64,000 nucleotides of DNA from Spirochaetota bacterium. Lineage in GTDB: Bacteria; Spirochaetota; UBA4802; JAFGJZ01. Each line of letters opens with the position of its first letter. Position 1 is the stretch's first letter. The notes under the pieces were generated by a model. That model made no database searches, was not told the DNA's origin, and saw only the letters and a program-made list of their open reading frames with translations. Location: the NCBI GenBank assembly GCA_027858855.1, contig JAQIBV010000009.1, positions 62,001 to 126,000 on the forward strand. Reading direction: 5' to 3'. Shown piece after piece: positions 15,414 to 44,778 of the stretch. Made by a program: the position numbers and the translations under genes.

Positions 15414-17081
15414 TTAAAACCAGCCGAACTGAACAAAGAGATTGATCGAGAGATTATTAAACTCATCCGGTCTGAGATAGGCAACATCAATATCAGAAAA
15501 ATAGTTATATCCGACACCTGCCCCAACACGAAGAAAACGGGTAACATTTACATTTACATTAAAGAAGGGATGTAGAGCAAAGAAACCCGAAGAGTTACTA
15601 TAATCCTCGGTATCATCATCCATGTTTTTAGTCAAGGTGCACGAACCACCGCCCCCGATTAATCCGACTGAATAGGTCACTATATCTTTTGGATTAAAAT
15701 AATACTGGAAATAAAATCCACCATAGCCCAAAGCCAGATACTGATCTTCCTGTTCATTATAATTATCTGTATAATCACCTAGTTTCAGTGGATTAACAAG
15801 CCCGAATCCTCCACCGCCAAGTACAAATTTGTTATTAATTATTACTCCACCGGCTCCACCTACAAAGCTGGCATTCGAATCAGAAAAGGGAAGCATGTAA
15901 TACATCGGTCCTAGCATACCGGATATACGGAATGTACCTTTTTCTAATAGATAATCACCAGTATCTCCGTCATCGCCGAAAAGTTTCTCCATTTTTCCAA
16001 GTATTTTATCCGAAAACACCTCTTCCGCTTTTCCCCGCCAACGGGTTTTCTCCTTAACACCTCCTGAAAAGTCAGAAGATTGAAGGTTATATGATGCACC
16101 ATCTTTGATAGAAATTGATGCTTCTGATACACTGTTATTATAATGATTATTAACTACGGTATACTTACCCGCAGAAACTGCGATTGAAAATTCTTCTCCA
16201 TACGATTTATTGAATTCGGCTACAATATTATTTGAGTCATCGCGAACAAAAAGCCGTCCCTCAAGCTCCTTACTTATAACCAATTTGGAGGAAGAACTAT
16301 TTATATCTGTTAAAACCACATCTCCTGTACCAATCATCTCAATATGATAATTCGGATGTTGCGGTCCACCTGTAGTCTTTTGTGTTCTGGCAAGAGTAGA
16401 ATTATAGGCAAACTGATATACCTCATTCAGTGTGATTTTGCGATCCTGACTCACATCAGCAGCCCCCCTCATTCCTGTTAATACATAATGCGTAAAAAAG
16501 GAACCACGAATTGAATCTGACTCCTGAGATGCTTCGTCAGCAGAACTCGATGTCATGAATGCATTACCCTTCATATCGTATGAATTATCGACAAAAAAAG
16601 CGGGCTTCATTGTTCCACCCTTGGTTCGTGTAAAAGCACCGGATGAGCAGGAATCGAGTATAACTATTCGGACATCAACATCAAATGATTTTATATTTTT
16701 TTTGAGTTCTGTATACAGCACCTTATCATTCCCTAACAAAATTCCGGTCTGATCGGAGTGTCCCGAATAATAGAAAAAAACCTCAGTCTTCCGATATCGG
16801 TTTTTTTCTCTGTTAATTTTTTGAACAAGCCGTCCAAGCGAGGAATAATAATTACGTGGGTCAGGATTATAAAGTACAAAAACATCCTCATCATTTATTC
16901 CACCAATGGATGTCATAACGGAACGGAATGATGCAGCATCAGAAACCGCATACTTCAAAAGCACACGGTCATTGCCTCCATTATTCGCACCTATTATAAA
17001 GGCATACCTCTTGGTTGTAGAGGCAAACATTTGTGATTGAATAGAAAATAATAGCAAAACAAAGAAAAAAATTCTCTTCAT
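15414..17081 (-). CDS. Secreted caspase-like protease with C-terminal outer-membrane beta-barrel
   Basis: A 555-residue protein. Residues 1-20 are a signal peptide. Residues about 24-260 are a peptidase C14 (caspase/metacaspase) domain with the catalytic dyad visible: H108 in YYSGHSD and C145 in ILDSCSSGAF. A middle region (about 265-345) has beta-sandwich-like sequence. From about 385 to the end there are alternating amphipathic strands with Gly and aromatics, ending in FVQFGWF, the form of an outer-membrane beta-barrel with a C-terminal Phe. The protease part would therefore be tethered at the outer membrane. It lies 3 bp after the anti-sigma-like gene in the sigma factor operon. The substrate is unknown. 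Confidence 0.88.
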   Translation of the reverse strand: MKRIFFFVLLLFSIQSQMFASTTKRYAFIIGANNGGNDRVLLKYAVSDAASFRSVMTSIGGINDEDVFVLYNPDPRNYYSSLGRLVQKINREKNRYRKTEVFFYYSGHSDQTGILLGNDKVLYTELKKNIKSFDVDVRIVILDSCSSGAFTRTKGGTMKPAFFVDNSYDMKGNAFMTSSSADEASQESDSIRGSFFTHYVLTGMRGAADVSQDRKITLNEVYQFAYNSTLARTQKTTGGPQHPNYHIEMIGTGDVVLTDINSSSSKLVISKELEGRLFVRDDSNNIVAEFNKSYGEEFSIAVSAGKYTVVNNHYNNSVSEASISIKDGASYNLQSSDFSGGVKEKTRWRGKAEEVFSDKILGKMEKLFGDDGDTGDYLLEKGTFRISGMLGPMYYMLPFSDSNASFVGGAGGVIINNKFVLGGGGFGLVNPLKLGDYTDNYNEQEDQYLALGYGGFYFQYYFNPKDIVTYSVGLIGGGGSCTLTKNMDDDTEDYSNSSGFFALHPFFNVNVNVTRFLRVGAGVGYNYFSDIDVAYLRPDEFNNLSINLFVQFGWF

Positions 17082-17084
17082 TTT

Positions 17085-17897
17085 TTACTCCTTGTAAAGG
17101 ATGAAGGACTTGAACTGAATATTGAAGTCATCGACATATGGTTCACTTTCAGGATTATTACCAGAAGTTTCCTGAAGTCTATTTTCAATGGATTTAATCT
17201 GAAACGGCTTTTTCGAAATAAACAAATAGAACTTTTCAAAATAGGGAGCATCATCCAGTACGTATGAATTGTCAAGCGTGACTCGTTTACCCTTTTCAAT
17301 TGAACGTGATACATTACTATCAATTGGAAAATGGCGGGTTATTGTTCCGTTTCCATCAATCGAAAGAATAGCCCCAAAAGTACTGGTGTCATTCTGATAT
17401 GCTATCTGCAAATGGTCGCCCGGCTTAACGACAGATCTGTTAGTGAGCACGATGACTCCAGTCTCACTCTTTTTATAGATATTTAGAGACGCACTTCCTT
17501 TGATACGTGTTACTTCACTATTTTCACCCAAATTTTGTAAGGTCTGTCGCGAATCACGTGGCATAAACATGAAAAGAGCCATGACTATGGCAAGTGCGGA
17601 ACTAAAAGACAGAACGGTTTTGAAATTAAAAAACTGTGAAAAAAGAGATAAATGTCGCTTTGATATTAATGCCTTTTTAACATTTGAATCTTCTGCAGCT
17701 TTTTCTATCTGCTTTACCCGTAAGGCAACAGGATTTGCTGAAAAGAAATCATGATTTGATTCTTCAATTTTTAAAAGTCGAAGACGAGTTTGAACATCAG
17801 ATTCAATAATATTTTTCAGATTATTATATGTTTCCTCAGGAAGTTCATGTAAAAGATACTGTTCCAGTGTTAAGTCGGTAATAAAATCGTTATCCAT
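17085..17897 (-). CDS. Anti-sigma-factor-like single-pass membrane protein
   Basis: A 270-residue protein. The cytoplasmic N-terminal part (residues 1-90) has an anti-sigma-like helical region (LEQYLLHELPEETYNNLKNI), then one membrane segment (about 93-113) and a periplasmic domain resembling the DUF4384-type domain found beside bacterial caspases (KPGDHLQIAY, DGNGTITRHFP). The ATG at 17897 has an AAGGAGGAG site and overlaps the end of the sigma gene by 8 bp, a sign of translational coupling. A longer reading frame from 17924 lacks such a site. Inferred role: holds the sigma factor inactive until an envelope signal arrives. I see no Cys/His zinc motif. Confidence 0.75.
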   Translation of the reverse strand: MDNDFITDLTLEQYLLHELPEETYNNLKNIIESDVQTRLRLLKIEESNHDFFSANPVALRVKQIEKAAEDSNVKKALISKRHLSLFSQFFNFKTVLSFSSALAIVMALFMFMPRDSRQTLQNLGENSEVTRIKGSASLNIYKKSETGVIVLTNRSVVKPGDHLQIAYQNDTSTFGAILSIDGNGTITRHFPIDSNVSRSIEKGKRVTLDNSYVLDDAPYFEKFYLFISKKPFQIKSIENRLQETSGNNPESEPYVDDFNIQFKSFILYKE

Positions 17898-18408
17898 GAT
17901 ACTCCTCCTTGAAGGTCGCGGCAATCTGTTTAACCTTTGATAACCGCTTTCTTATACCTGAAACAGATAATCCGGTAACTTCTGATATCTGTTTCAGCTT
18001 CATTTTATCTATATAAAACATGACCGCTATTTCCCTCGTTCCCTCTTTTTCGTCCTCAAAAATAGTATCAAGGTATTCATCGGCAATAACTTTTGACTCG
18101 CCTTCATTATAACAGGCTATTGTATGTAAAACATCCTCTACTTCGGTCGGGCTAACGCGTTTTTCCGACTTGATAATATTCAGGCAGATATTTGTTGCGA
18201 TGGTATAAAGAAGGCTGGATGGATACTTATGCTTAAGGCTCCCTTTATACCGTAACACCTTAACAAAGACATCCTGCATCGCATCCGACGCCCTGTCCTC
18301 GTCTTTTAGAATCGACAAACAGCGGCGAAACACCATCGGCCCGTATTTTATATAATATTCCTCGACATTAATATCCATTTGCAAACCCGATTTTCCTAAT
18401 TGGCGCAT
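17890..18408 (-). CDS. ECF-type RNA polymerase sigma factor
   Basis: A sigma-70-family extracytoplasmic-function sigma factor of about 172 residues. Region 2 covers YYIKYGPMVFRRCLSILKDE and DAMQDVFVKVL; region 4 contains a helix-turn-helix at KLKQISEVTGLSVSGIRKRL near the C-terminus. The ATG at 18408 has a weak AGGG site; a GTG at 18414 and an ATG at 18378 (MDINVEEYY, the usual family start) are alternatives. It heads the operon sigma - anti-sigma - caspase-barrel, so it probably controls that protease and itself. Confidence 0.88.
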   Translation of the reverse strand: MRQLGKSGLQMDINVEEYYIKYGPMVFRRCLSILKDEDRASDAMQDVFVKVLRYKGSLKHKYPSSLLYTIATNICLNIIKSEKRVSPTEVEDVLHTIACYNEGESKVIADEYLDTIFEDEKEGTREIAVMFYIDKMKLKQISEVTGLSVSGIRKRLSKVKQIAATFKEEYHG

Positions 18409-18911
18409 AAGCACCCTGATTTTAAAACCATCCGTTATTTATCAACAAAACGGAGGTTCCCAAAAAGGTCTGCGGTCAGGTTCTGGATGTCAATTCCTTT
18501 TGTATTTTTAGCTACTTATCACTTCCGAAAATCACCAATGAAGCTGCACCGGTTGATAACTTCTTGAATACATGCTTAGATTCAAATATTAAGTTTAATT
18601 ATCCAAAACATGGTTATTTCATAATTCCCAGTTATTAGTATAACAACATAGCAGCCAGTAGTGATACAATTTTGGTATGACTGATTTTAAAAAAAGCGGA
18701 ATTAATAATAAGGAACTTCGAAAAATTACCATGTTCCAGAAGGAACCTCGTTTAAGTGCCTATTCTAAAGGGATTTTTCGCAAGCTCCTTGTTGACAAGT
18801 TAATTATTAGAGATACCCAATATTTGATTGAATGGAATTTGTAAAACTGGAAAGACCTCAAAATCAGGGTTTTAAGGCACCCTGTAATTTTCGATAAATT
18901 ATAATAATCTG
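18409..18911. other. Non-genic region upstream of the sigma factor
   Basis: About 500 bp with no convincing gene. On the minus strand, GGAACC lies at 18460-18455, some 48 bases before the sigma start; GGAAC is the usual ECF -35 core, so it may be an autoregulated promoter. An inverted repeat TCCGTT/AACGGA spans 18431-18454. A 55-codon frame (18677-18844, plus) beginning MTDFKKSGINNK has no ribosome site or recognisable family and may be a remnant. Confidence 0.4.
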
Positions 18912-19859: not shown

Positions 19860-20120
19860 TAATTACTCCTTAACAAAAAAAATATATAACTTGGCGCTTT
19901 TAACAAACACCATTTTAAAATGCTTAATTCCCTCATCAGCCTTCACAAAAAGAAGTTGTTACAGTAAATTTTATTTATTCATAATCAGCGGGGATGTTAT
20001 ACTTTTAAACTTGACAACAATCTATATTTTTATCATTTTTCAGAAATGAACTTGCAAACAATTATCCTGAATAAAAGAACTATCTTTGGTGAAAATTCAA
20101 CAATCATTGATTACCCCAAA

Positions 20121-20945
20121 ATGAGATATGCCCTCATTTTTCTATTTTTATTATTTTCCCCGACGCTAAAGGCAGATATCCTTTTTTTTCAGGATAATAA
20201 TTTTGATACAAACCCACATGCGTCACTGCTGCAAGCCCCGGTTTCACACGTTTACTATACCCGACCCTTTGATAGTTCAGACAGATATCTCGAATATTCA
20301 ATAGGTGGTAAATTGCCTATAATCAGTTATCACTCAGACCAAATATCGGTACTTACCGGAGGTTACGGTCTGTTTTCTCCCCGCTTTGATCTCGACTCCG
20401 AATCCTTCAATCTCATTTGTGAAGATTACCTGGGAGGAGCTTTCATTGACATCCAATATAAAGATTTCATTATTTTGGCAAATTTATATCACATCAGCTC
20501 CCATTTTGGGGATGACAACCTATATTACAATAAATCAGAGTATGAAAACTGTGGCTATGAGGCCTTAAAAGGTTATCTGGACTACAAGTTGCATAAACTC
20601 TTTATTATTTCGGCAGGGTACGAACACAAACTATTGCGAAGGCCGGAAAATAAAATATTTTATTCAGATTCTGTTTTTTTGGGTTTTTTTATTGATTTCT
20701 TCACTGCAGGATACCCGCTGTTTCTTGAATGTGAAACAGAAATATTTTCCACCAGCAAATATCCTAATTTTGGTATCCGCACGGGGCTTTATCTTGGTTC
20801 GGCCCTGAATTCATTAAACGGCAAAACTGCCGGCAAAGGCAGACATGAACTATCTCTTCATTATTATAACGGATACTCTAAAAAAGGAAACCTTTACAAT
20901 AAGCGTGAACATTTGCTAATGCTCGGGCCTGTCTATAGATTCTAG
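20121..20945 (+). CDS. DUF1207-like outer-membrane protein
   Basis: A protein of about 274 residues starting at MRYALIFLFLLF, with a clear signal peptide (cleavage likely after KA). The mature part has alternating beta-strand sequence and the motif HISSHFGDD, which I associate with the DUF1207 family of outer-membrane proteins; it ends in PVYRF with a terminal Phe as in beta-barrels. A longer frame begins at 20046, but the 25 extra residues would hide the signal peptide. It faces the aryl-polyene cluster tail to tail, 15 bp away. Confidence 0.65.
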   Translation: MRYALIFLFLLFSPTLKADILFFQDNNFDTNPHASLLQAPVSHVYYTRPFDSSDRYLEYSIGGKLPIISYHSDQISVLTGGYGLFSPRFDLDSESFNLICEDYLGGAFIDIQYKDFIILANLYHISSHFGDDNLYYNKSEYENCGYEALKGYLDYKLHKLFIISAGYEHKLLRRPENKIFYSDSVFLGFFIDFFTAGYPLFLECETEIFSTSKYPNFGIRTGLYLGSALNSLNGKTAGKGRHELSLHYYNGYSKKGNLYNKREHLLMLGPVYRF

Positions 20946-20960
20946 TCAGCCCACTCCCTA

Positions 20961-21311
20961 TTAATGAATTTCAAGCTTTCCAGTTGCTACAATTTTACCA
21001 GAAACTTTTTCCAGAATTCTGAATGAAACCTCTGAATCAGTGAGCAGATTCAAAATGGCATGCAAAGGTACTTCAGGCTTAACAATTTTTTTAAAACGGG
21101 CAGATACCACGTTCACGACCGATTCTTTAGGCAAGCAAAAGGATTCAATAAAACAATTCTTTATAAAGAAAACAAATGCAATACCAGGCACTATTGGATT
21201 CCCGGGGAAATGTCCGTCAAACCAGTAGGAACCAACAGGAAACTGGAGATCCAGCTCTAATTGCTTTTCATTTTTTTTTACAATACTAAATAAGCAACCC
21301 GGATTAATCAT
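20961..21311 (-). CDS. Hotdog-fold dehydratase-like protein (ApeI-like)
   Basis: A 116-residue hotdog-fold protein with the FabA/FabZ-like motif GHFPGNPIVPG, containing the catalytic His. The acidic residue usually found on the following helix is not evident (IAFVFFIKNC), so it may act as a partner subunit or have altered chemistry. Its ATG overlaps the ACP stop as ATGA. Inferred role: removes water from 3-hydroxyacyl-ACP during polyene extension, probably with the other hotdog proteins of the cluster. Confidence 0.75.
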   Translation of the reverse strand: MINPGCLFSIVKKNEKQLELDLQFPVGSYWFDGHFPGNPIVPGIAFVFFIKNCFIESFCLPKESVVNVVSARFKKIVKPEVPLHAILNLLTDSEVSFRILEKVSGKIVATGKLEIH

Positions 21312-21556
21312 TTCTTTTCAATAGCCTTCTCAATACAAGTGACAACGTCACCGATGGTACGAATAGTGAAAAGTGCGGAATCATCAAGTTCTATGCCATG
21401 TTCAGATTCAAGCATACTGACCATATTAAGAGCATCAAGACTATCCAGGCCCAACTCATCAAAAAGAAGGGCTTCCGGCACTATTTTATTGCTTTCTACT
21501 TCGAATTCAGAAATAAAATATTTCTTAATTTCATCAAAAATGTTTTCCTGATTCAT
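21308..21556 (-). CDS. Acyl carrier protein (second)
   Basis: An 82-residue acyl carrier protein. The phosphopantetheine attachment Ser is S39 in LGLDSLDAL. It has the typical three-helix acidic profile. CAGGAG precedes the ATG. It overlaps the ApeI-like gene by 4 bp. Together with the ACP at 25322-25573 it gives the cluster two carriers, as in known aryl polyene clusters. Confidence 0.93.
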   Translation of the reverse strand: MNQENIFDEIKKYFISEFEVESNKIVPEALLFDELGLDSLDALNMVSMLESEHGIELDDSALFTIRTIGDVVTCIEKAIEKK

Positions 21557-21710
21557 TGTAACTCCTGGTCATTTCGATTATTTGAGCTTTTTAAAAGGAA
21601 TCGGCTATAACTTCAAGTAACATAGCCTGTTTATCTAAATCGTAATAATTATTAAAATTATTTTTAAAATATCGATTGGATATTTATATAGCATAAATCT
21701 CTGTATATAA

Positions 21711-23174
21711 CTATTTTTTGCAAGCTTTTATGGCAAGCAAAATTCCTTTAGTAAAACAAGTTTTATACAGATAATCCTCCACATAATCCACGCAAAACCC
21801 ATTACTCACCAAAGTGTCACGTACCTCTTTTTTGCACCTTGCATGCAACCAAACACTTTGTCTCATGGCATTTCCAATTTGAGCAAAAAACCGAAACAAA
21901 CTTTTGTGCGCAGTTGTTATTAAAATTGTCGATCCTGGTTTTAACCGCCGAGACAAATCTTCACATAGCAGATTAAAATCACTGATATATTCAATTGCTG
22001 AAAAAGAGACGGCTAAATCATAAAATTCGGCACTTTGAAACCCGAAAATATCAGAATGAACTATTTCTATATTAGATTGTTTATGCTTTACGGTTTTCTC
22101 TTCCAGAACATCCAGCATGTTTCTGGATACATCCACAGCGGTTACAGTCCTGTTCAATCGTGCTAAATCAAGCGTATATAAACCCGTACCGGCTCCAATT
22201 TCCAAAACATTGTTCTGTTTATCAGACACTAACGGCAAGATCTGAGAGACCAGATTGTACTCATATTTTCGAATACGTGAAATTGAGGTTTCAAACTGTT
22301 CAAGATCATACTTTTTTGCAAGATTATCGTAAAAATCAGATACAACGGTTGACGGAATAGCATTCGTAGCTGGAGCCGAAGGATGGTTCATGACTTCATG
22401 AAGTGATCTTATTGCATATCCTTTTTGTAAAATATTTTCAATTATTGTTTCGAGCTCACTTATCCACTTCTGAATATCCATTCCGGAAATGTAATTATCA
22501 TGCAATAGAACAATAGCGCCTGGCTTAATCTTTTTGCCGATTTTTTTTGCCAAATTATGCCTTATACGATTTCCAGCATCCTTTGCCCGGCATGAAAAAT
22601 TTACGCATAACAAATTGTATTCTGCAAGTAATGAAAACAGAAACGGGTTTGTTATCCCGACCGGAGGTCTGAAATAGCGAACATTCAAGGAAAATCTTTC
22701 CTTGAAATAATGCTGAAATTGTTCGATTTCATATCGTAGCTTTTGTTTGCTTTTCAGCATAATCAGCACATCATGTGACCAGGTGTGATTCCCTATTGAA
22801 TGCCCCTGTTCAATAATCTGAGACACTATGTATTCATTACGACGAGCAAGAGTCCCTGTAAGAAAAAAAGTCGCCCTGATATTATATTTCTTTAATATTT
22901 CCAAAACAACGGGAGTTAACTCCGGAGAGGGCCCGTCGTCAAAGGTCAGTACTATATCCCGACTGTTCTTAAACCGGCTGATCACAGGAACGTAGATTCT
23001 CCATGAAGGGAAAAAAGGGGCAATAACAACAATAAGGACAATACAGAGCAATGGAATAAAGGCACTAACGGAAAGTCCGACTATGAGCATCACAATCGAT
23101 AATTGCACCAACCCAAGCATAACAAAATAAACCGGACGAAGTACAGAAGTGGTAAATGAATGCCTGTTGCTCAT
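21711..23174 (-). CDS. Fusion: membrane-anchored polysaccharide deacetylase + SAM methyltransferase
   Basis: A 487-residue fusion. Two membrane segments lie at about 12-55. Residues 70-265 are a NodB/CE4 deacetylase domain with the metal and catalytic motifs TFDDGPSP (D79, D80), HTWSH (H130, H134) and FRPP (168-171). Residues about 280-487 are a class I SAM methyltransferase (motif I LEIGAGTG at 324-331). The gene starts 3 bp after the KS-CLF stop. Inferred role: deacetylation and methylation of a polyene-linked sugar or of the aryl head. The chain is continuous, with no frameshift visible. Confidence 0.85.
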   Translation of the reverse strand: MSNRHSFTTSVLRPVYFVMLGLVQLSIVMLIVGLSVSAFIPLLCIVLIVVIAPFFPSWRIYVPVISRFKNSRDIVLTFDDGPSPELTPVVLEILKKYNIRATFFLTGTLARRNEYIVSQIIEQGHSIGNHTWSHDVLIMLKSKQKLRYEIEQFQHYFKERFSLNVRYFRPPVGITNPFLFSLLAEYNLLCVNFSCRAKDAGNRIRHNLAKKIGKKIKPGAIVLLHDNYISGMDIQKWISELETIIENILQKGYAIRSLHEVMNHPSAPATNAIPSTVVSDFYDNLAKKYDLEQFETSISRIRKYEYNLVSQILPLVSDKQNNVLEIGAGTGLYTLDLARLNRTVTAVDVSRNMLDVLEEKTVKHKQSNIEIVHSDIFGFQSAEFYDLAVSFSAIEYISDFNLLCEDLSRRLKPGSTILITTAHKSLFRFFAQIGNAMRQSVWLHARCKKEVRDTLVSNGFCVDYVEDYLYKTCFTKGILLAIKACKK

Positions 23175-23177
23175 ATT

Positions 23178-25322
23178 TTATTCTTTACCGGATATTTCAT
23201 AGGCGTAGATCATGTCGCCGAATTCGACGATAAGAGCCGGTTCTGTTTTCCGGGATGAGTACTCAATTCCATTAACAACAATAGAGCCATTTAGAACCTG
23301 CTCACAGGCAAGAACTGCAATAATGGATGATGAACTGTCAAATCTTCCGGTAATACTGATACCATCAAGCAGATGACGATACCGGTTAAACTCGGAGATA
23401 AATCGTCTGTACTGGTCATCAGACGATTTATCCGTTATCAAACATTCAACTGTACTATACCACACAACACCATACATATCATGACGATCGTTAATTATAT
23501 CAATCAGTTCATCAACGGCACTGTGAGTATTTACAGAATAGAAAACAGGTTGTATACTCAGGCCCTGTTTGTTCGTACTCGCATTAACCAGCAAAAGTGC
23601 TCCCCCATCACAGCCATTTTGCACGCCATTAAAACGGGGATCAACGATTGGCAACAGTGTTTCATGGTACTGATCTGCCGCCCCCAGAAGTGCAGTTTCA
23701 TTATTCTCTGATAAAAGCGAAGCTGAAAAAAGAGCCTGATAAAAGGAGGTGCTGCCACCAGTTAAGGTGACGTTAGCAGATTTAGCCTTACACATTAACG
23801 CAAGTTGTGCTGCAGGCGCATTATGAACCGATCCTATAAAATCTATAGCCGATCCGAAAGTTTCATTACTGGCAAAAAGCCGAGTGTAAAAATCGAATGT
23901 TTCTGACATCGGCCCCCACGATGTCCCTAAATAGACAGAATTGATCGCGGATACAGATGAACCTGCCGTAATTGACGAAGCAACAGACAAAGTAATCAGG
24001 GGAAGGCGCTTTTGACGGCGTACGGCCCGCGGATCAAGACCAACAACATTACTGGCGATATCGACCAGTCCGGCACACGAACCGGATTTTGCTACTGCAT
24101 CAAGAGTAGCAGTCAGATTCCCCGCTCCGGTTAAACAGTTATAATCGACAACATTTAAAACTATTTTATCCAAATTAAAAGATCGTTTTGAATTATAATC
24201 AGTTGAAACCAGTAATGAGGCATTGTTTCCGCCAAAACCAAATGAATTTGACAAGACGGTTGAAATTTCCCTGTACGCTAAGCCGGTTACAGGAGAGAGA
24301 CCAATTTCAGGATCTTCATGTGTAAAACCTGCATTAGGAGGTATTAACCCTTCAGATAAGCATATTGTTGAAATATAGGCTTCAATTGCACCCGAAGCAG
24401 CTAAAGTATGTCCCGTCCCACCCTTTACTGATGAAAATAGCGGAATTTGCGAACTGAACAGAGAACGAACAGCCTTTAATTCTGCCTTGTCGTTTTCCAC
24501 CGTAGCCGTTCCATGTAAATTTATATAATCTATATCTGAATAATTAATTCCTGCGTCCCGTAAACTGTTTTTCATTGACCGAAGTGCTCCGTCACCTTCC
24601 GGGTCGGGCGACGCAGCATGATAGGCGTCACAGGACAGACCAACCCCTATCAGTTCACATACTGTGTTTAACGGCGGAGTATCGGCTGCCTCAACCATAA
24701 ACAAGGCAACGCCCTCCCCAAGAATCAGCCCGTCCCGATATGCGTCTAACGGGAAGGAACCTTTTTTTGATAACAACTGCAAAGCATTAAAGCCATGATA
24801 GGTTAAGCGACACAATGTATCGGCAGCCCCAACCAGAATTCTATCCGCCTCTGATTTTCGAATCATCTCAAGGGCAATTTTAAATACAAGTGAACCAGAT
24901 GAACAAGCAGTAGATACGGCAATATGTGGGCCTGTGCACCCAACATGGCGCCCTAAGTGTTCAGAAATGGAAAATATTGAATGATCCGGAGAAGAACCTC
25001 CACACTTATTTTTTATTATGCTTTCAGTACAGTCGATTCCCCCTGTTGTACTTCCAAATACAAGCGCATCAGGAGCTACCCCGATTTTTTCGAGTAATTT
25101 GTCAGCAGCATGAAGAGCCAGGCGGTGTGTTTTAGGGAGATCTGACCTGCTGGCAATATTTGGAATAATTACCGGTTTTACCAGGGGCGAATCAACAGGA
25201 AGAGGAAAATAGGTGCACTCAACGGAGTTCTCTCTAGCTTTTTGAAAATAGGCTGTTATTTCTTCATGCGTCTCCCCTATTGGAGTTATTGCAGAAACAG
25301 CAGTAATAAATGCACGTTTCAT
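23178..25322 (-). CDS. Fused ketosynthase + chain-length factor
   Basis: A 714-residue protein of two tandem KS-fold domains. Domain 1 (about 1-385) has a full active site: C140 (STACSSGS), H270 (NLHGTATV) and H305 (GGTGHTLAASGA). Domain 2 (about 390-714) is KS-like but degenerate, with TLTGGSTSF near residue 519 where the active-site Cys would be; this is the chain-length-factor pattern. In studied aryl polyene systems these two are separate proteins forming a heterodimer. TAATG overlap with the upstream ACP. Inferred role: extends the aryl starter with malonyl units and sets the polyene length. Confidence 0.9.
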   Translation of the reverse strand: MKRAFITAVSAITPIGETHEEITAYFQKARENSVECTYFPLPVDSPLVKPVIIPNIASRSDLPKTHRLALHAADKLLEKIGVAPDALVFGSTTGGIDCTESIIKNKCGGSSPDHSIFSISEHLGRHVGCTGPHIAVSTACSSGSLVFKIALEMIRKSEADRILVGAADTLCRLTYHGFNALQLLSKKGSFPLDAYRDGLILGEGVALFMVEAADTPPLNTVCELIGVGLSCDAYHAASPDPEGDGALRSMKNSLRDAGINYSDIDYINLHGTATVENDKAELKAVRSLFSSQIPLFSSVKGGTGHTLAASGAIEAYISTICLSEGLIPPNAGFTHEDPEIGLSPVTGLAYREISTVLSNSFGFGGNNASLLVSTDYNSKRSFNLDKIVLNVVDYNCLTGAGNLTATLDAVAKSGSCAGLVDIASNVVGLDPRAVRRQKRLPLITLSVASSITAGSSVSAINSVYLGTSWGPMSETFDFYTRLFASNETFGSAIDFIGSVHNAPAAQLALMCKAKSANVTLTGGSTSFYQALFSASLLSENNETALLGAADQYHETLLPIVDPRFNGVQNGCDGGALLLVNASTNKQGLSIQPVFYSVNTHSAVDELIDIINDRHDMYGVVWYSTVECLITDKSSDDQYRRFISEFNRYRHLLDGISITGRFDSSSSIIAVLACEQVLNGSIVVNGIEYSSRKTEPALIVEFGDMIYAYEISGKE

Positions 25323-28798: not shown

Positions 28799-31700
28799 TC
28801 AAAAATTGCCATGTGCAGAAAGGTGATCATTCTGAACAATAAACCAGGTTTCTTCACGTTTTTCATCTGTCTGCTCCATTATAACCGAAGTATAACCGGC
28901 CATGTTTAACAGTTCGGTAATTCGTGAAGATGAACGAAAATAAACACTCTTTCCCTTGTTAAAGAAACGAACTTTTTCCAAAATTCTTTCCCAAGCATAA
29001 TTTCGATCGCCGGGTATTGTTATCCGTATAAGAAGACGACCTTTGTATTCAAGCTTTTCTCTTATCCTGGCCGTTATGCTGGTAAACTCCTTATCGGTTA
29101 GATAGTGCCCCATATCTAACATTAAAGCCAGATCAGAACCATCGGGTAATTTATCTAAATCATCACACGCGTTACCTAAAAGTACGGTACCTTTAGAACC
29201 GAGAGCTGCATTCGCCACTTCTACCCTCGCCACGTCCGGTTCCAGACCTGTATATGTAACTGAAGGCATGATTTCCAGCATCCAAACGGCGGGGACTGCA
29301 AACCCTGCTCCAATATCAATAATAGAATGAGGCGATCCTGCATATTGAAGCAGCGAATCAAAAAGTGGATCAAGCTTCATCTTATAATGTGCAAAATATT
29401 TTGAAAAAGGACTGATGAGCGAATATCGGGCAACTACATTTCTGATATGATCACGTGAATTGGCAACAACAAGGCTACCAGAACGTTTTAATACAGATGC
29501 GGTATAACTTTGAAGCAAAAAAGGGCTAATAAGAATATTAGCGAGTAAAGAATAAAAAACGCCAAGAAATGAGACGATTCCAACACTGCGCAAAAGAGGA
29601 TGATAAGAAAACATTAATGCGCCAAAACCGGCCATTGTGGAAAAGGCGGCCATGAAAATAATTAAGCCAATTCGGATCGTTGAATCATCATATCCTTTTA
29701 AGGCAATCCGCTGTGACGCTTTTATCATATAGAGAGCATAGTCAACGCCAATTCCCAGGACTACTACGGAAAGCATGAGAACAGGTATGTCCAGAGGCCT
29801 GTTTAACAGACGAAGGGTTGAAAGGGTTGCGCAAAAGGAAAAAAACAGAGGCACCAAAACTATCATAACCAATCTTATATCTGCCAATAAAAAAGTTAAC
29901 AAAACCAAAACCGAAAGCAGAATAATAAGTAATAAACGTATAAATGATTCCGAAAGAAAATCGGTAAGACTATTTACATAATAGTGCGGGTCATACCAGG
30001 CAGCGGAAACAGCTTTCTGCTGAATTAAATCCGAGATAGCAGCTGGTGAATAGTGATCCCCCTTTTTATAAATTATTAGTCCCGAATACAGACCCTTTTC
30101 GTGATAAATATTAAATTGATTTAACAGGGCCTCTTTTTGAGACGACACGAAATGATCTTCTGACGTAATTTTTTTTAAAAAAGTAGCGTAAAACTGGAAA
30201 GGCATCCCTGTCTCTGTACATATCTGTTTCAGATTAATATTTAATGAATCCAGTTTTGCATCAGTCCAGTAATTTTTCCAGCTGGTATAATTTTGCAGTC
30301 TGATATCATTTCCCGGATACATCGTGGATGGCGAGACAAAAGAGGATAATTCATTTTGCTCAACTTTTAAAGAGAGCAGCCGGGTAAGACTATCACTTTG
30401 CTCTAGTAACTCCGGCAAGGTCTCTGCCTGTAAAAGGAATAGGGATGAATCGAGAAGATTACCCCATACCGACTGAATTTTTGACTCTGACTCAAGTGTA
30501 CGGGAAGACGAATAATTCATTGATTCCAGTGAAACATCGAATTTTGTCTGAATATAAAAAAGAGAAAGGAATAAAAGTATAATTCCAATAATACATTTGG
30601 CTCCTGTTTTTGAAAAGAAAACCGGTACAATCAAATGGTGCAATAATGGGGTTCTTTTAAGGGTTCCTGGTATTGAGTGGAAGACATCGGGGAAGACAAA
30701 ATGAATATAAATAAATGAACACAATAGACCGCTTGCCGTGAAAATACCTATTTGAGAAAGCAGTGTAAAACCAGTAAAATATAATAAAAGAAAACCGGCC
30801 ATGGTAGTAACAGTGCCGGAAAGACTTGAATACCATATTTTTCGTGAAGCAGCTTTTCCACAGGTTTTCCCTTTTTGATCTAAAAATATTGAATAAGCAA
30901 TACCATGATCTACTGTAATGGAAATAATCGCGGAACCGAAACCAATGGTTAACAAAGATATTGAGTCAAAAAACAGCGCAAACAAACAAAACCCGGAAAT
31001 TGTGCCAAGAAGAGCGGGAACAAGCGCGACCACTCCCCACAAGGGACGGGAAAAAGCCAAAAAAACAAGTATGATTATTACTATGGTTGCAATAGTTAAT
31101 GAACGGGCTACATCAGCACGAATAACCCGTTCATTCTCGTAAGCAGATTGAAATGCACCTGCATAATTGATACTGATCAATTGCGAATTTGAAGCAAATT
31201 CAGTCTCAAATTGTTGGTAAAGGGAAGAGAAACAGGAGACAAGCGCCTGTGCAGTTTCAGATTCGGTTGTATTTCCAACTGGTTCAAGAACAATCAAAAT
31301 ATTTTTTTTATCATTACTAACAAGAAATCCGTTACTGTAATGTGCTATATCGGTTGGGAGCTGCATCATAATCTTTTTGAAAATCAGTGAACGGAAATTT
31401 AAAGGATCTGCAATCATTACATTTGTCTGACCGGTTCCTGTTAGTGTCTGCAAACTGTTCAAATTATCCGATACGGATAAATACAGCTTTTCTGCAGACA
31501 ATAATGAGTCCAGTTTAGTTTTAAGCTCATCTTCGGTTAATAAATATGGTAAATTGGAAACAATGTACGAAATTAAGTCAGGATAATCTTCAATAACATT
31601 TTGCATTCCAACAGCAGAAAAGAGATCACTTTTCAGAAGTTGCTGTTGATAAAAAGCCGCAGCCTTAAAAAGCAGTTCATAATTATCCTCCCGTACGGAT

Positions 31701-31888
31701 ATATTGAGTGCAATTTTATCCTTTTGTGGCAAGGTAATAAAAATTGTCTGCGCATCGGAAAAAACGCGTGAAGAGGTGGGAAGAAGTTGTATAATATCAG
31801 TTGAAATGTTTAATTTCTCAAAAGCAAACCCGATACAAACGATATTAATTAAAACAATTAAAATAATGCGTTTATAATTTATAATCAC
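28799..31888 (-). CDS. Fusion: MMPL/RND exporter + SAM methyltransferase
   Basis: A 1029-residue protein. Residues 1-800 have the MMPL/RND design: one membrane segment, a periplasmic loop, five segments, then a repeat of this plan (twelve in all), including GFGSAIISITVDHGIAYSIF and VVLGIGVDYALYMIKAS. From about 840 to the end there is a cytoplasmic SAM methyltransferase with motif I IDIGAGFAVPAV (near 854). Stand-alone MMPL exporters are standard in aryl polyene clusters; the methyltransferase tail is the unusual part. The start is GTG at 31888 with TAGGTACTC before it. Confidence 0.88.
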   Translation of the reverse strand: MIINYKRIILIVLINIVCIGFAFEKLNISTDIIQLLPTSSRVFSDAQTIFITLPQKDKIALNISVREDNYELLFKAAAFYQQQLLKSDLFSAVGMQNVIEDYPDLISYIVSNLPYLLTEDELKTKLDSLLSAEKLYLSVSDNLNSLQTLTGTGQTNVMIADPLNFRSLIFKKIMMQLPTDIAHYSNGFLVSNDKKNILIVLEPVGNTTESETAQALVSCFSSLYQQFETEFASNSQLISINYAGAFQSAYENERVIRADVARSLTIATIVIIILVFLAFSRPLWGVVALVPALLGTISGFCLFALFFDSISLLTIGFGSAIISITVDHGIAYSIFLDQKGKTCGKAASRKIWYSSLSGTVTTMAGFLLLYFTGFTLLSQIGIFTASGLLCSFIYIHFVFPDVFHSIPGTLKRTPLLHHLIVPVFFSKTGAKCIIGIILLFLSLFYIQTKFDVSLESMNYSSSRTLESESKIQSVWGNLLDSSLFLLQAETLPELLEQSDSLTRLLSLKVEQNELSSFVSPSTMYPGNDIRLQNYTSWKNYWTDAKLDSLNINLKQICTETGMPFQFYATFLKKITSEDHFVSSQKEALLNQFNIYHEKGLYSGLIIYKKGDHYSPAAISDLIQQKAVSAAWYDPHYYVNSLTDFLSESFIRLLLIILLSVLVLLTFLLADIRLVMIVLVPLFFSFCATLSTLRLLNRPLDIPVLMLSVVVLGIGVDYALYMIKASQRIALKGYDDSTIRIGLIIFMAAFSTMAGFGALMFSYHPLLRSVGIVSFLGVFYSLLANILISPFLLQSYTASVLKRSGSLVVANSRDHIRNVVARYSLISPFSKYFAHYKMKLDPLFDSLLQYAGSPHSIIDIGAGFAVPAVWMLEIMPSVTYTGLEPDVARVEVANAALGSKGTVLLGNACDDLDKLPDGSDLALMLDMGHYLTDKEFTSITARIREKLEYKGRLLIRITIPGDRNYAWERILEKVRFFNKGKSVYFRSSSRITELLNMAGYTSVIMEQTDEKREETWFIVQNDHLSAHGNF

Positions 31889-39825: not shown

Positions 39826-40707
39826 ATGTTTTGGAAATTACTTTACATTTTGGGAAATCTTATAGCTTTTTTACATTTATATTTCATTATTTATTTAATT
39901 GCTTTTTTTGTCGCGGTGGGTTATTTCATCTTTAATAAACAGGGCGTAAAAAATAGTGTAGCTTTTTTTAAAAAGGTATTTCCAGACAAAGGTGCATTGT
40001 TTTATTACAGATGTGCTTTTTTACAATTTCTAAAGTTCTCTTATCTTTTCTGTGAAAGATTTATTAACAGGGACTATTCCAAAACGACCTGGGAATCCGA
40101 TGGTTGGGAGTATCTTGAAAAAGCAATATCAGAAAAGACCGGTGGTATTCTTTTAATGTCACATATTGGCAACTGGGATGCTGCCAGCTATCTTTTTTAC
40201 AGAGAAAGTACAAATCTTATGCTTCTTATCGGAACAAGAAACAGCGAAGAGATGGAGAAATACTACAAAAAAAAGTTCAAAAACAGTAATATTAAAATTA
40301 TTACGACTGAGCCTGGGAATCAATCTCCTGCAAATATCATTGAACCTGTAAACTTTTTAAAAGAAGGTGGTTTTGTGGCTGTAACCGGAGATAGAATCTG
40401 GCACAGTTCACAACGATTCATTGAAGCTCAATTTATGAATGAAACAATTCATGTTCCTGAATTTCCATTTATGCTCTCTATGTTATCAAAAAAACCAGTC
40501 TATATTTTTTTTATTACAGGTAAAAAAAGAGATCACTATTATTTAAGGGGGGTTAAACCACTTATGCTTTCGTCTGATAAAAGGGAAAACCGGACTGAGG
40601 TATTGCATTCAGCGGTGCAGCTCTATTCTGAGGAACTTGAAAAATTTGCCAGGCACTATCCATTCAGCTGGTTTCATTTTGAAGATTTCTTCAAACGGAA
40701 TGAGTAA
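39826..40707 (+). CDS. LpxL-like lysophospholipid acyltransferase
   Basis: A 293-residue protein with an N-terminal membrane segment (residues 12-35) and the HX4D motif H113-D118 (SHIGNWD) of the LpxL/HtrB lauroyltransferase group, then GGFVAVTGDR. Such acyltransferases occur in aryl polyene clusters and probably build the lipid to which the pigment is attached. Its 3' end overlaps the convergent flavoprotein gene by 17 bp. Confidence 0.85.
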   Translation: MFWKLLYILGNLIAFLHLYFIIYLIAFFVAVGYFIFNKQGVKNSVAFFKKVFPDKGALFYYRCAFLQFLKFSYLFCERFINRDYSKTTWESDGWEYLEKAISEKTGGILLMSHIGNWDAASYLFYRESTNLMLLIGTRNSEEMEKYYKKKFKNSNIKIITTEPGNQSPANIIEPVNFLKEGGFVAVTGDRIWHSSQRFIEAQFMNETIHVPEFPFMLSMLSKKPVYIFFITGKKRDHYYLRGVKPLMLSSDKRENRTEVLHSAVQLYSEELEKFARHYPFSWFHFEDFFKRNE

Positions 40708-42193
40708 ATGTTCTGTTTTCAAGGGTGCATAACTTCTGAATGACTTCACGTGCCGACAATGCAGCAAAAGGCACTCCTCCGCCTGGTTTTACCCAATGAC
40801 CGCACATGTAAAAATTCTGTAAACCCGGCAACTCAGCGTTTAGCCCCTTACCATAGGATATTTTTGCAGCTTGAGGAGTACACAACCAACCTTCAAAAGA
40901 GCCATTTCGGTTATGAGTATAACGACTGATTGTCAAGGGGGTTGAAATGTCGGTAGTTTCAACGGATTCTGTTATTCCGGGATATAGCCGTTCTAATTCA
41001 CTTAAAACATATTTCTCTATATTTAGTTTTTCATTTTCATATTTATCGGTTCCCCTGCAAAAATTTTTCCAATATTCGAAATCAGAATAAAAACGAACCT
41101 GTATAACCGAGCGACCTTTTGGACAAAGACTGTCGTCATATGAAAAATGCCTTACAGCAAGATATTCCTGATTACTACCACCAATGAAAACCGGTTTAGT
41201 AAGAACATGATTTTCGTAATGAGGATAACCGGACATATCCATTTTGATGCCAAATGAAACTAAAATCAAAGAAGGGAAAAGTGGCATTGTATTATAAAAA
41301 TTGGTGATTTCGGTATTTACAAATTTACCTTCCAAGAGTTCAAAAATAGTCTTATACCCGTCTGCAGCAGAAATAACAAGATCTGAATAATGGGACTGGT
41401 CGTTATCCAGAATAACACCGGAAGCGCTCGAATCACTAACGATAATTTTTTTTACATACGAATTTTTTTTAATAGCTCCGTTCAAGGACAGGTATTTTTT
41501 TTCAAGACTTTTTGACAAGGAATCGGATCCTCCACGTAGCAGACCTGCATTCTTGTCATGAAAATATCCCAAAGTCATTACAATAGAGAGCATTGATAAA
41601 TTGGAAATGGAAAATATCCGCAAAAAGGCCTTTCTCAATTCCTCCGATTTGAAACGCATCAGATACTCTTCAAGAGTAAGTTTCATGTACCGGCGAAAAA
41701 TATAGGCATAGGGCTTGACATACGATATTTTATCCAGCGCTTTCTGTTTGTTAAAATGAAGAGAGTTCTGCTCAAGAGCAGGTTGAAAACGCGAAATAAA
41801 ACAGATATCTTCTATTAATTCGTGAATAAGATCTGAATCTTCAGGAGAAAAAAGTAACAGTGATTTCTTGAATTTTTGCATATCATTATTTACAACTAAT
41901 GATATTGCATTTTCATTATGAATGCGAATATACTCATCATTATCTATAACATCAAAGCGATCTGCAACTCCCAGCTCTGACCATAAATCATTAATAAGGT
42001 GTCCTTTTCGTGTGCCTACCAGCCAATGAAGACAACCGTCAAAAGAGTATCCCGCTCTTTTCCATGTTGTGCATAAACCTCCGGAAATAGAATGAGATTC
42101 AAATATTACGGAATCATATCCATTCATTTGCGCATAACATCCGGCAGCTAAACCAGAGATTCCACCACCGATAATAATAATTTTTTTTACCAA
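40691..42193 (-). CDS. Phytoene desaturase/isomerase-like FAD oxidoreductase
   Basis: A 500-residue flavoprotein of the CrtI/CRTISO/retinol-saturase group: N-terminal dinucleotide motif GGGISGLAAG (9-18), ESHSISGGLCTTWKRAGYSF and a C-terminal MCGHWVKPGGGVPFAALSA flavin motif. Family members desaturate, saturate or isomerise long polyenes. In this cluster it could adjust the polyene double bonds; the reaction is not known. The start is TTG at 42193 with GGGAG five bases upstream; no nearby ATG fits. Confidence 0.88.
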   Translation of the reverse strand: MVKKIIIIGGGISGLAAGCYAQMNGYDSVIFESHSISGGLCTTWKRAGYSFDGCLHWLVGTRKGHLINDLWSELGVADRFDVIDNDEYIRIHNENAISLVVNNDMQKFKKSLLLFSPEDSDLIHELIEDICFISRFQPALEQNSLHFNKQKALDKISYVKPYAYIFRRYMKLTLEEYLMRFKSEELRKAFLRIFSISNLSMLSIVMTLGYFHDKNAGLLRGGSDSLSKSLEKKYLSLNGAIKKNSYVKKIIVSDSSASGVILDNDQSHYSDLVISAADGYKTIFELLEGKFVNTEITNFYNTMPLFPSLILVSFGIKMDMSGYPHYENHVLTKPVFIGGSNQEYLAVRHFSYDDSLCPKGRSVIQVRFYSDFEYWKNFCRGTDKYENEKLNIEKYVLSELERLYPGITESVETTDISTPLTISRYTHNRNGSFEGWLCTPQAAKISYGKGLNAELPGLQNFYMCGHWVKPGGGVPFAALSAREVIQKLCTLENRTFTHSV

Positions 42194-42998: not shown

Positions 42999-44762
42999 TT
43001 ATTTGTTATACAATTTTCGAGGTGTATACGAAGTGTGCAACAATTTATGCGCCTTGTGACTACCCGGTTCTTCGAGAAAATCTTTGTAAATCTTGGTAAT
43101 CATCGGGTTTTGATGAGAACATCGTTTATCAGACTGCTCATCATCCTTATACATACCTGCAGACCGTTTCGCACGAATTTCGTCGGTTGCGCCATATGGC
43201 TGACCGCCACCTCCGACACATCCACCACGACAGGCCATAACCTCGACAAAATCGTATGGTGATTTCTCACCCTTGGCTAAAGCCACACGGATTTTATCCA
43301 GAACATACTCTACGTTAACCAAGCCATGAGCAACAGCAACATTAACAGGTGTTCCCTTAACGTCAATTGTAGCCTCTTTTACGCCATCAAGACCACGAAC
43401 AGGAACCAGATTAACATCAGGTAACTCCTCTTTGGTTATAAGAAAATATGCAGAACGAAGAGCTGCTTCCATTACACCGCCGGTAGCGCCGAAGATTGTA
43501 CCTGCACCGGTGTATTCAGCCAGAATTTCATCGGCTCCCTCATCTTCAAGATTCTCAAAATCAATACCGGTCTGTTTAATCATTCGAGCAAGCTCACGAG
43601 TTGTTAATACAACATCAACATCCTGATAACCACTCGAAAACATATCTTCATTACGGTTACACTCGAACTTCTTGGCTGTACATGGCATAATAGAGACCGA
43701 GTAAATCTTTGACGGATCTATATTCTGCTGCTCGGCATAATAGGTCTTAATCATCGCACCCATCATCTCTTGTGGAGATTTAGCGGTCGAGAAATGTTCT
43801 ATCATGTCGTGATCGTATTTTTCAAGATAATCGATCCATGCAGGACAGCATGAAGTAATTAGTGGTATCTGTTTATTTGTAGTAAAACGCTTAACAAATT
43901 CGGTACCCTCTTCAAGTATGGTAAGATCGGCCGAAAAGTTAGTATCAAATACAGCCTTGAATCCAAGACGTCGAAGTGCCGCGTACAATTTACCGGTTGA
44001 TATTTCACCTGGTTCATAACCAAAGGCCTCTCCGATTGCGACTCGTACTGCCGGTGCAATCTGAACAACCGGGTATACTTCGTTATCCGTAACACACTCA
44101 CAACATAGTTTTTCCCAGACCTCAGTTACCTGGTCTTTCTCGTAAATTGCTCCAACCGGACAATGTGCTGAACACTGACCACATTTTACACAGGGACTAT
44201 CTGCCAATTGAACATCAGCTGCAGGAGCAATACGTGTTTCAAAACCACGACCAAGAAATTCCAGAGCCCAGACATTCTGCATCTGCTGGCACACCTGAGC
44301 ACAACGGCCACACAGGATACACTTCTCGGGATCAAGCACAATAGACGGTGTTGAAGTATCACATGGCAGATCACGCAATTGCTGCTGATAAGGAACCTCG
44401 CGTATTCCAAAATCTGCAGCCAGTTTCTGAAGCTCACAATTACCGTTACGTGCGCATTTTAAACAGTCATTAGGATGACGAGATAAAATTAGCTCGAGTA
44501 CAGTTTTTCTGACCTTCACTATTTCAGAGTCATGTGTAATAACACTCATTCCATCCTGCACTTCCATCGCACAGGCACGAAACATCTTCGGGGAATTCTC
44601 AAGTTTTACTATACATAAGCCACATGCAGCCCATGGTTCTAGATCAGGATGATCACATAGTTTGGGAATTTTAATTTTTGCTGTTTCGGCCGCCTTAAGA
44701 ATCGTAAGACCCTTCTCAACTTCATAGGGCTTGCCGTTAAATTTTATAGTAACTGTTTCCAT
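42999..44762 (-). CDS. hydA: [FeFe] hydrogenase catalytic subunit
   Basis: A 587-residue [FeFe] hydrogenase large subunit of the trimeric NAD-linked (bifurcating-type) group. Clusters visible: [2Fe-2S] C36, C47, C50, C64; His-ligated [4Fe-4S] H96, C100, C103, C109; two ferredoxin-type clusters (CILCGRCAQVC from 148, CVKCGQCSAHC from 191). H-cluster ligands: C305/C306 (TSCCPAW), C361 (MPCTAKKFE), C511 and C515 (MACRGGCVGGGG). Oddity: CCEC at 220-223, just before the H-domain, is extra to the usual ligands. Last gene of the operon. Confidence 0.95.
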   Translation of the reverse strand: METVTIKFNGKPYEVEKGLTILKAAETAKIKIPKLCDHPDLEPWAACGLCIVKLENSPKMFRACAMEVQDGMSVITHDSEIVKVRKTVLELILSRHPNDCLKCARNGNCELQKLAADFGIREVPYQQQLRDLPCDTSTPSIVLDPEKCILCGRCAQVCQQMQNVWALEFLGRGFETRIAPAADVQLADSPCVKCGQCSAHCPVGAIYEKDQVTEVWEKLCCECVTDNEVYPVVQIAPAVRVAIGEAFGYEPGEISTGKLYAALRRLGFKAVFDTNFSADLTILEEGTEFVKRFTTNKQIPLITSCCPAWIDYLEKYDHDMIEHFSTAKSPQEMMGAMIKTYYAEQQNIDPSKIYSVSIMPCTAKKFECNRNEDMFSSGYQDVDVVLTTRELARMIKQTGIDFENLEDEGADEILAEYTGAGTIFGATGGVMEAALRSAYFLITKEELPDVNLVPVRGLDGVKEATIDVKGTPVNVAVAHGLVNVEYVLDKIRVALAKGEKSPYDFVEVMACRGGCVGGGGQPYGATDEIRAKRSAGMYKDDEQSDKRCSHQNPMITKIYKDFLEEPGSHKAHKLLHTSYTPRKLYNK

Positions 44763-44778
44763 TTATTCTTGCTCCTCC

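Follow-up and report, generated by a model that had tools for sequence, protein, structure and literature searches.

Operons that combine a caspase homolog with a sigma-70 gene were recorded in a 2012 survey of metacaspases (Asplund-Samuelsson 2012, PMC3501461), which places them in Myxococcus xanthus DK1622 (four operons), Anaeromyxobacter, Haliangium, Sorangium, Ralstonia, and Fibrobacter. Here we describe a three-gene operon from a Spirochaetota bacterium, located in a 64,000-nucleotide stretch of contig JAQIBV010000009.1 (the window; all positions below refer to it), which encodes an extracytoplasmic function (ECF) sigma factor, a membrane anti-sigma factor, and a caspase homolog predicted to be secreted and tethered to the outer membrane. 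The operons of the survey fall in lineages (Myxococcota, Fibrobacterota) in which we also find this triad, and they are very probably the same system. The available portions of the survey text name the sigma factors only: they assign no anti-sigma role and describe neither a shared motif nor a promoter, barrel, or mechanism, and Spirochaetes are not listed for the operon; a full-text literature search, which did not extend to subscription papers, returned no later work on sigma-caspase operons. A first-pass annotation of the window had singled out these three genes; the spread of the triad, its variable C-terminal module, a shared R-x-K-G motif, a conserved promoter, and a decayed barrel gene upstream are additions of the present analysis.

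In layout the triad resembles the FecA-FecR-FecI and FoxA-FoxR-FoxI systems (PMC11637429), each with an outer membrane barrel protein bearing a periplasmic domain, a single-pass anti-sigma factor, and an ECF sigma factor. There the outer membrane part is a TonB-dependent receptor with a plug and an N-terminal signaling domain, whereas here it is a small OmpA-like barrel joined to a protease domain, and may itself be the site-1 protease. The RseA-DegS-RseP and RsiP/RsiV types offer a second likeness, a membrane anti-sigma factor proposed to be cut extracytoplasmically and then by a site-2 protease, but the site-1 enzyme would here be a caspase-type cysteine protease from the same operon with a basic P1 residue, rather than DegS or signal peptidase. 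With the MaOC1-type orthocaspases the protein shares the C14 fold, the His/Cys dyad, and an acidic S1 pocket predicting lysine or arginine at P1; it differs from them in its predicted secretion, its fusion to a β-sandwich and an outer membrane module, and its link with an ECF pair. MaOC1 itself has an antitoxin as its target (PMC7935541). In the ECF54 group with a CHAT-domain protein (PMC8999054), a caspase-related domain likewise lies near an ECF sigma factor, and proteolytic control has been proposed. The role of most bacterial caspase homologs is usually framed as cell death. For the family described here, a clear partner is predicted, a cleavage site can be proposed to the residue, and a promoter and candidate regulon are in hand, so that a function becomes directly testable in a laboratory organism such as Myxococcus xanthus. 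If the scheme proposed below is correct, caspase-type proteases would act in envelope signal transduction across a large part of the bacterial tree, and ECF control would gain another type of site-1 protease.

Operon and distribution

The three genes lie on the minus strand in the order sigma factor, anti-sigma factor, caspase homolog, and the coordinates and residues assigned to them in the first-pass annotation proved correct.

17890 to 18378, minus strand: ECF sigma factor, 162 amino acids (Sigma70_r2, E 9e-8; sigma70-ECF TIGR02937, E 6.5e-15, above cutoff)
17085 to 17897, minus strand: predicted single-pass membrane anti-sigma factor, 270 amino acids (AlphaFold2 model; weak DUF4384 match)
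15414 to 17081, minus strand: predicted secreted caspase homolog (peptidase C14) with a C-terminal outer membrane barrel, 555 amino acids (PF00656, AlphaFold2, Foldseek)

The sigma gene runs from an ATG at 18378 to a stop at 17890; longer frames opening at GTG 18414 or ATG 18408 are possible, but 18378 is favored because homologs begin at its MD[IV]. The protein contains sigma regions 2 and 4 only and is adjoined by an anti-sigma gene, as expected of an ECF sigma factor; it is 86% identical to its counterpart in a same-genus relative and 26 to 58% identical to 32 others. The anti-sigma gene (ATG at 17897, stop at 17085) overlaps the sigma gene by 8 nucleotides.

Among named relatives, the closest is a metagenome assembly of Spirochaetes (G146 = JAFGRW01), which kinship labels place in the same genus. 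A query with the full caspase protein found a match in 81 of the 393 genomes of the phylum sample, a count that includes matches to the barrel alone. When the surroundings of the Spirochaetota caspases were scanned with profiles, anti-sigma and sigma homologs were found just upstream on the same strand in all 40 neighborhoods fetched, whereas none of 30 other Spirochaetota caspases had a sigma or anti-sigma gene alongside; the triad is therefore not a chance arrangement. The coupling of the caspase to a membrane anti-sigma factor and an ECF sigma factor, which loss of the operon in related genomes would have contradicted, is thus upheld. The same neighborhoods rule out a TolC-like gene that had been put forward as a possible further member: it lies next to the operon in a single same-genus genome, and the 39 other neighborhoods lack it there.

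Across several phyla we collected 209 caspase loci after removal of duplicates; an anti-sigma gene lies directly upstream in 188, and both anti-sigma and sigma genes are present in 175. Some of the remaining loci are cut short by contig ends. Besides the Spirochaetota, named homologs occur in Aminicenantes and other Acidobacteria, Myxococcota, Fibrobacteria, Gemmatimonadetes, Goldiibacteriota, FCPU426, Bdellovibrionales, and one Gammaproteobacterium. At least one homolog is present in 153 of 195 Myxococcota genomes and in 8 of the 297 genomes of the Aminicenantes phylum sample. The family has expanded in myxobacteria, with up to ten caspase homologs per genome (G807, G832, G705, and other Myxococcota).

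Protein architecture and a shared R-x-K-G motif

The features within the anti-sigma factor and the caspase homolog are as follows; residue numbers for the anti-sigma factor are those of P0002, which starts at codon 3 of the 270-residue frame.

17568 to 17624, minus strand: anti-sigma transmembrane helix, residues 90 to 108 (AlphaFold2)
17496 to 17507, minus strand: anti-sigma R-I-K-G, residues 129 to 132, where the disordered juxtamembrane linker ends, with a proposed cleavage site after K131
16332 to 17015, minus strand: caspase domain, residues 23 to 250, with His108, Cys145, and the predicted S1-pocket acids Asp48 and Asp143
16614 to 16631, minus strand: caspase T-R-T-K-G-G loop, residues 151 to 156, directly after the catalytic cysteine (weighted conservation)
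16083 to 16316, minus strand: β-sandwich following the caspase domain, residues 256 to 333 (AlphaFold2)
15417 to 15926, minus strand: predicted eight-stranded outer membrane β-barrel, residues 386 to 555, with a C-terminal phenylalanine (AlphaFold2, Foldseek)

In its model (predicted local distance difference test [pLDDT], 87), the 270-residue protein is a single-pass membrane anti-sigma factor, with four N-terminal cytoplasmic helices, the transmembrane helix, a disordered linker (pLDDT below 50 for residues 114 to 130), and a periplasmic β-sandwich from residue 135; binding of the sigma factor is predicted. The hydrophobic helix is found in 186 of 188 homologs. A match to DUF4384 stays below its cutoff (E 3e-4; 21.1 bits versus 27), and 15 of 39 anti-sigma homologs match this family at an E value of 0.01 or lower; in a scan of the members, one homolog matched zf-HC2 (E 1.7e-5). 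A Foldseek search with the model gave only generic β-sandwich matches (RhoGDI, UNC119, carbohydrate-binding modules), and no ligand is therefore inferred.

The AlphaFold2 model of the caspase homolog (46-row alignment, mean pLDDT 86) consists of a signal helix (residues 2 to 17), the caspase fold, the β-sandwich, a disordered linker, and eight long strands between residues 386 and 553. The caspase domain is the sole PF00656 match in the genome (E 2e-11; 44.4 bits versus a cutoff of 21.4), and the His108/Cys145 dyad noted in the first-pass annotation is indeed intact, its codons lying at 16758 to 16760 and 16647 to 16649. The N-terminal part of the model matched metacaspase 7qp1 in Foldseek (E 6.6e-8). 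Similarity to the EACC1-associated caspase family (NF047832) is distant only, at 58.6 bits versus a cutoff of 140, and this assignment was rejected. In an alignment to 7qp0 that covers it, D48 coincides with the aspartate of the metacaspase C-x-N-D-A motif, and D143 stands two residues ahead of Cys145, as in TbMCA2, whose catalytic cysteine is Cys213. Metacaspase Asp95 and Asp211 are part of a proposed S1 pocket (PMC4357240); Asp48 and Asp143 are, by sequence, their equivalents and would line an acidic pocket, and lysine or arginine is therefore predicted at P1. Bacterial orthocaspases are described as cutting after positively charged residues (PMC6426788). H108, C145, D48, and D143 are each kept in 187 of 188 homologs. 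By its family match above cutoff, dyad, and acidic pocket the protein belongs to peptidase C14; its proteolytic activity is a prediction. The β-sandwich that follows carries the conserved residues G275, R280, E289, and K292.

The proposal of a C-terminal barrel ending in phenylalanine could have failed on structure prediction; instead, the model contains exactly eight strands in this region, the chain ends in LFVQFGWF, and the Foldseek matches of the C-terminal part were NspA, OmpA, Ail, OprF, and OmpX (E values from 6e-6 to 1.5e-4). Pfam gave no match in the barrel region. As a prediction, an outer-membrane-tethered caspase is well supported, and the protein would be placed in the periplasm with its barrel inserted in the outer membrane. 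The type of barrel is clade specific: close relatives have the eight-stranded barrel, and most relatives have LA_2272-type surface repeats instead. A scan of 41 Spirochaetota members found the LA_2272 repeat in 22, the VC2662 family in 22, a CsgG/LpoB-type module in 2, and kelch repeats in 1; outside this set, the VC2662 family was present in 7 of 10 members tested, 6 of which also had the LA_2272 repeat. Family names and terminal strands suggest that these other modules, too, reside in the outer membrane. Because the last third varies between members, the constant core is taken to be signal peptide, caspase, and β-sandwich, with the outer membrane module swapped. Stand-alone copies of the barrel adjoin the operon in several genomes, and a trace of one is found in the window:

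18444 to 18509, minus strand: 22-residue remnant of a decayed stand-alone second barrel gene (tblastn, E 7e-4 over 22 residues; blastn, 89% over 28 nucleotides)

The remnant has no open frame, and a same-genus relative has an intact barrel gene at that place (L032, 6779 to 7411).

A motif common to the two proteins may connect the predicted specificity of the caspase with a possible substrate. In the anti-sigma factor, no columns are better conserved than K131 (186 of 188 homologs), G132 (185 of 188), and D179, and R129 is kept in about 83%; the K-G pair lies a median of 19 residues past the transmembrane helix, at the edge of the disordered linker. In the caspase the T-R-x-K-G-G loop shows weighted conservation of 91% for R152, 98% for K154, 99% for G155, and 91% for G156. 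Residues 155 to 165 have pLDDT values below 50, and the loop is a possible site of self-cleavage or gating. It was absent from the other Spirochaetota caspases that we read. Among 36 DUF4384 proteins encoded outside such operons, 3 have any K-G near the corresponding place, none in a matching context. Two single cases may be set beside these counts: K-G is missing from a sigma/DUF4384 pair (L378) that has no caspase gene nearer than about 8 kb and present in another (L377) with a divergent caspase about 2.5 kb away. Because the S1 acids predict a basic P1 residue and the motif is common to the caspase loop and the anti-sigma factor, we infer that the caspase cuts R-x-K/G (the slash marking the cut) in itself and in the anti-sigma factor. 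Caspase relatives L138, L149, L127, L120 (Fibrimonadales), and L129 (Aminicenantes) have no recognized anti-sigma gene upstream, and the R-x-K-G-G loop is kept in them.

Promoter, proposed mechanism, and alternatives

Upstream of the sigma gene, the pattern GTRAC-N16-18-GTGTT occurs in 80 of 169 operons, against a mean of 0.07 in shuffled sequences; 79 of these have a spacer of 17, which corresponds to GTRACA-N16-GTGTT. A stricter pattern gave 29 sites in ten Spirochaetota genomes (1 for a reversed-pattern control) and 14 sites in eight Myxococcota genomes (none for the control). Sites away from the operon mostly precede envelope genes, namely a stand-alone barrel, a TonB plug-domain receptor, ExbB-type and DUF4097/DUF2807 genes, predicted outer membrane proteins, and lipoproteins; exceptions include two sites inside open frames, one before a PadR regulator, and one before a TetR-type regulator. 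DUF2807/DUF4097 and ExbB-type genes follow the promoter in both Spirochaetota and Myxococcota, which argues that the sites are real. The sigma factor of the triad would read GTRACA-N16-GTGTT. The earlier suggestion of a function in envelope stress gains indirect support from these targets; the support comes from relatives and not from the window's genome. In two Myxococcota loci (L436, L444) the promoter stands directly before anti-sigma-caspase pairs that have no sigma gene of their own, so that several such pairs in a genome may share one sigma factor. The window itself holds one candidate:

18637 to 18667, minus strand: weak candidate promoter GTATC-N17-TGTTATACT, with one mismatch and a spacing one base shorter than in the family promoter

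This candidate is not significant alone, and the window's genus offers weak candidates only.

In the scheme that we propose, the sigma factor would be held inactive by the membrane anti-sigma factor, whose periplasmic β-sandwich would be the sensor, and the periplasmic caspase-type protease would be anchored to the outer membrane through its OmpA-like barrel. Perturbation of the envelope would activate the caspase, perhaps through cutting or freeing of its own T-R-x-K-G-G loop beside the active-site cysteine, and the active enzyme would make the site-1 cut in the anti-sigma factor after the lysine of the juxtamembrane R-x-K-G. A housekeeping site-2 protease of the RseP type, together with cytoplasmic proteases, would then complete degradation, and from GTRACA-N16-GTGTT promoters the freed sigma factor would transcribe its own operon along with a few envelope genes. 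The genome encodes an RseP homolog (M50; PF02163, E 2.8e-56), which is weak evidence, since a control search found matches in all 14 genomes. Within this scheme, the operon and its conservation, the domains and topology, the dyad, the acidic S1 pocket, the shared motif, and the promoter with its sites in relatives have sequence or model support, whereas the activity, the cut, the trigger, the order of events, the location in vivo, and the use of this promoter by the sigma factor are proposed. We regard its core, a trans-envelope ECF system whose caspase frees the sigma factor by cutting the anti-sigma factor at RxK/G, as evenly balanced between right and wrong. A broader statement is put forward somewhat more tentatively: across many phyla, a caspase in the periplasm, which many members would hold at the outer membrane, would sense the state of the envelope and switch on transcription by cutting the anti-sigma factor at a motif also present in its own activation loop.

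Several observations weigh against this scheme. A caspase held at the outer membrane must reach a site near the inner membrane, a reach that the 50-residue linker and the β-sandwich make possible, and shorter C termini without a recognized module occur in the L195 group and in other members. In the window's own genome a relaxed promoter pattern is not enriched (38 sites versus 63 for the control), and no regulon is therefore claimed for this organism. For CgMCA-I, basic residues at the maturation sites have been argued not to be mandatory (PMC9622860). The shared motif was recognized post hoc and is a strong lead, not proof. By plain mutual information, caspase R152 and anti-sigma R129 covary weakly (their pair ranks 4941 among 83280 column pairs, and 44 of 513 entropy-matched pairs score as high), and a Leu/Leu co-change at the motif (Fisher, 1.5e-6) rests on about two lineages. 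Finally, the K-G pair could be needed for structure where the β-sandwich begins.

Taken to its conclusion, this last point would make R-x-K-G a structural element only, the first turn of the β-sandwich, and its match in the caspase loop a coincidence. Such an explanation, which touches one step and is compatible with the alternatives that follow, fits the weak covariation and the post hoc discovery, and the loops of other caspases also hold basic residues, although arranged otherwise. It does not fit as well with the DUF4384 domains outside these operons, which do not show R-x-K-G, or with the position of the motif, which falls beyond the DUF4384 model and borders the low-confidence linker; we consider it a serious candidate, if on balance an unlikely one.

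The main rival to the scheme as a whole reverses the role of the caspase, which would be output rather than trigger: another protease would release the sigma factor under envelope stress, and the caspase would be induced for quality control or processing of envelope proteins. The caspase gene does lie within the sigma factor's own operon, where the shared promoter would induce it, and the promoter also precedes other envelope genes. However, an output role explains neither why no pair in the exposed anti-sigma linker is as well conserved as K-G nor why the caspase has the same motif, and the near-obligate pairing of anti-sigma factor and caspase (188 of 209 loci) exceeds what an output gene needs. 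We judge this reading doubtful, though still worth keeping in view.

A more improbable alternative is that the caspase domain mainly binds, shielding or inhibiting the anti-sigma factor as the FoxA signaling domain does with FoxR, while other enzymes make the cuts; in the Fox system, which has the same three-part layout, the outer membrane protein protects the anti-sigma factor from proteolysis (PMC11637429). For a pure binder, however, a dyad and S1 acids kept almost without exception (187 of 188 members) would be superfluous. Eukaryotic caspases and other bacterial caspases occur in death or conflict systems, but a regulated-death or anti-phage device in which the activated caspase kills the cell is very improbable here: the modeled protein has a signal peptide and an outer membrane anchor, the other candidate targets of the sigma factor are envelope genes, homologs are kept in 153 of 195 Myxococcota genomes, no toxin or defense gene was recognized in the neighborhoods, which were not scanned with a defense library, and for the death-related role once suggested for this locus no evidence of any kind was found. 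Caspase-triggered release of the sigma factor remains our preferred reading.

Other genes in the window

A DUF1207 protein is encoded on the plus strand at 20046 to 20945, divergently from and upstream of the permease gene ahead of the operon. It is followed on the minus strand, at 20961 to 25322 and perhaps extending to 42193, by a gene set of the aryl-polyene/fatty-acid type, which includes a dehydratase-like protein, an acyl carrier protein, and a 714-residue protein with two ketoacyl-synthase regions. Within this set, a 487-residue fusion protein (21711 to 23174, minus strand) joins a polysaccharide deacetylase (residues 70 to 185) to an S-adenosylmethionine (SAM) methyltransferase (residues 318 to 425). 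Farther along lie an MMPL transporter (28799 to 31888) and a flavin amine oxidoreductase (40691 to 42193). At 42999 to 46581 on the minus strand, an iron-only hydrogenase large subunit adjoins a NuoF-like protein, and the pair is probably an NADH-linked [FeFe] hydrogenase.

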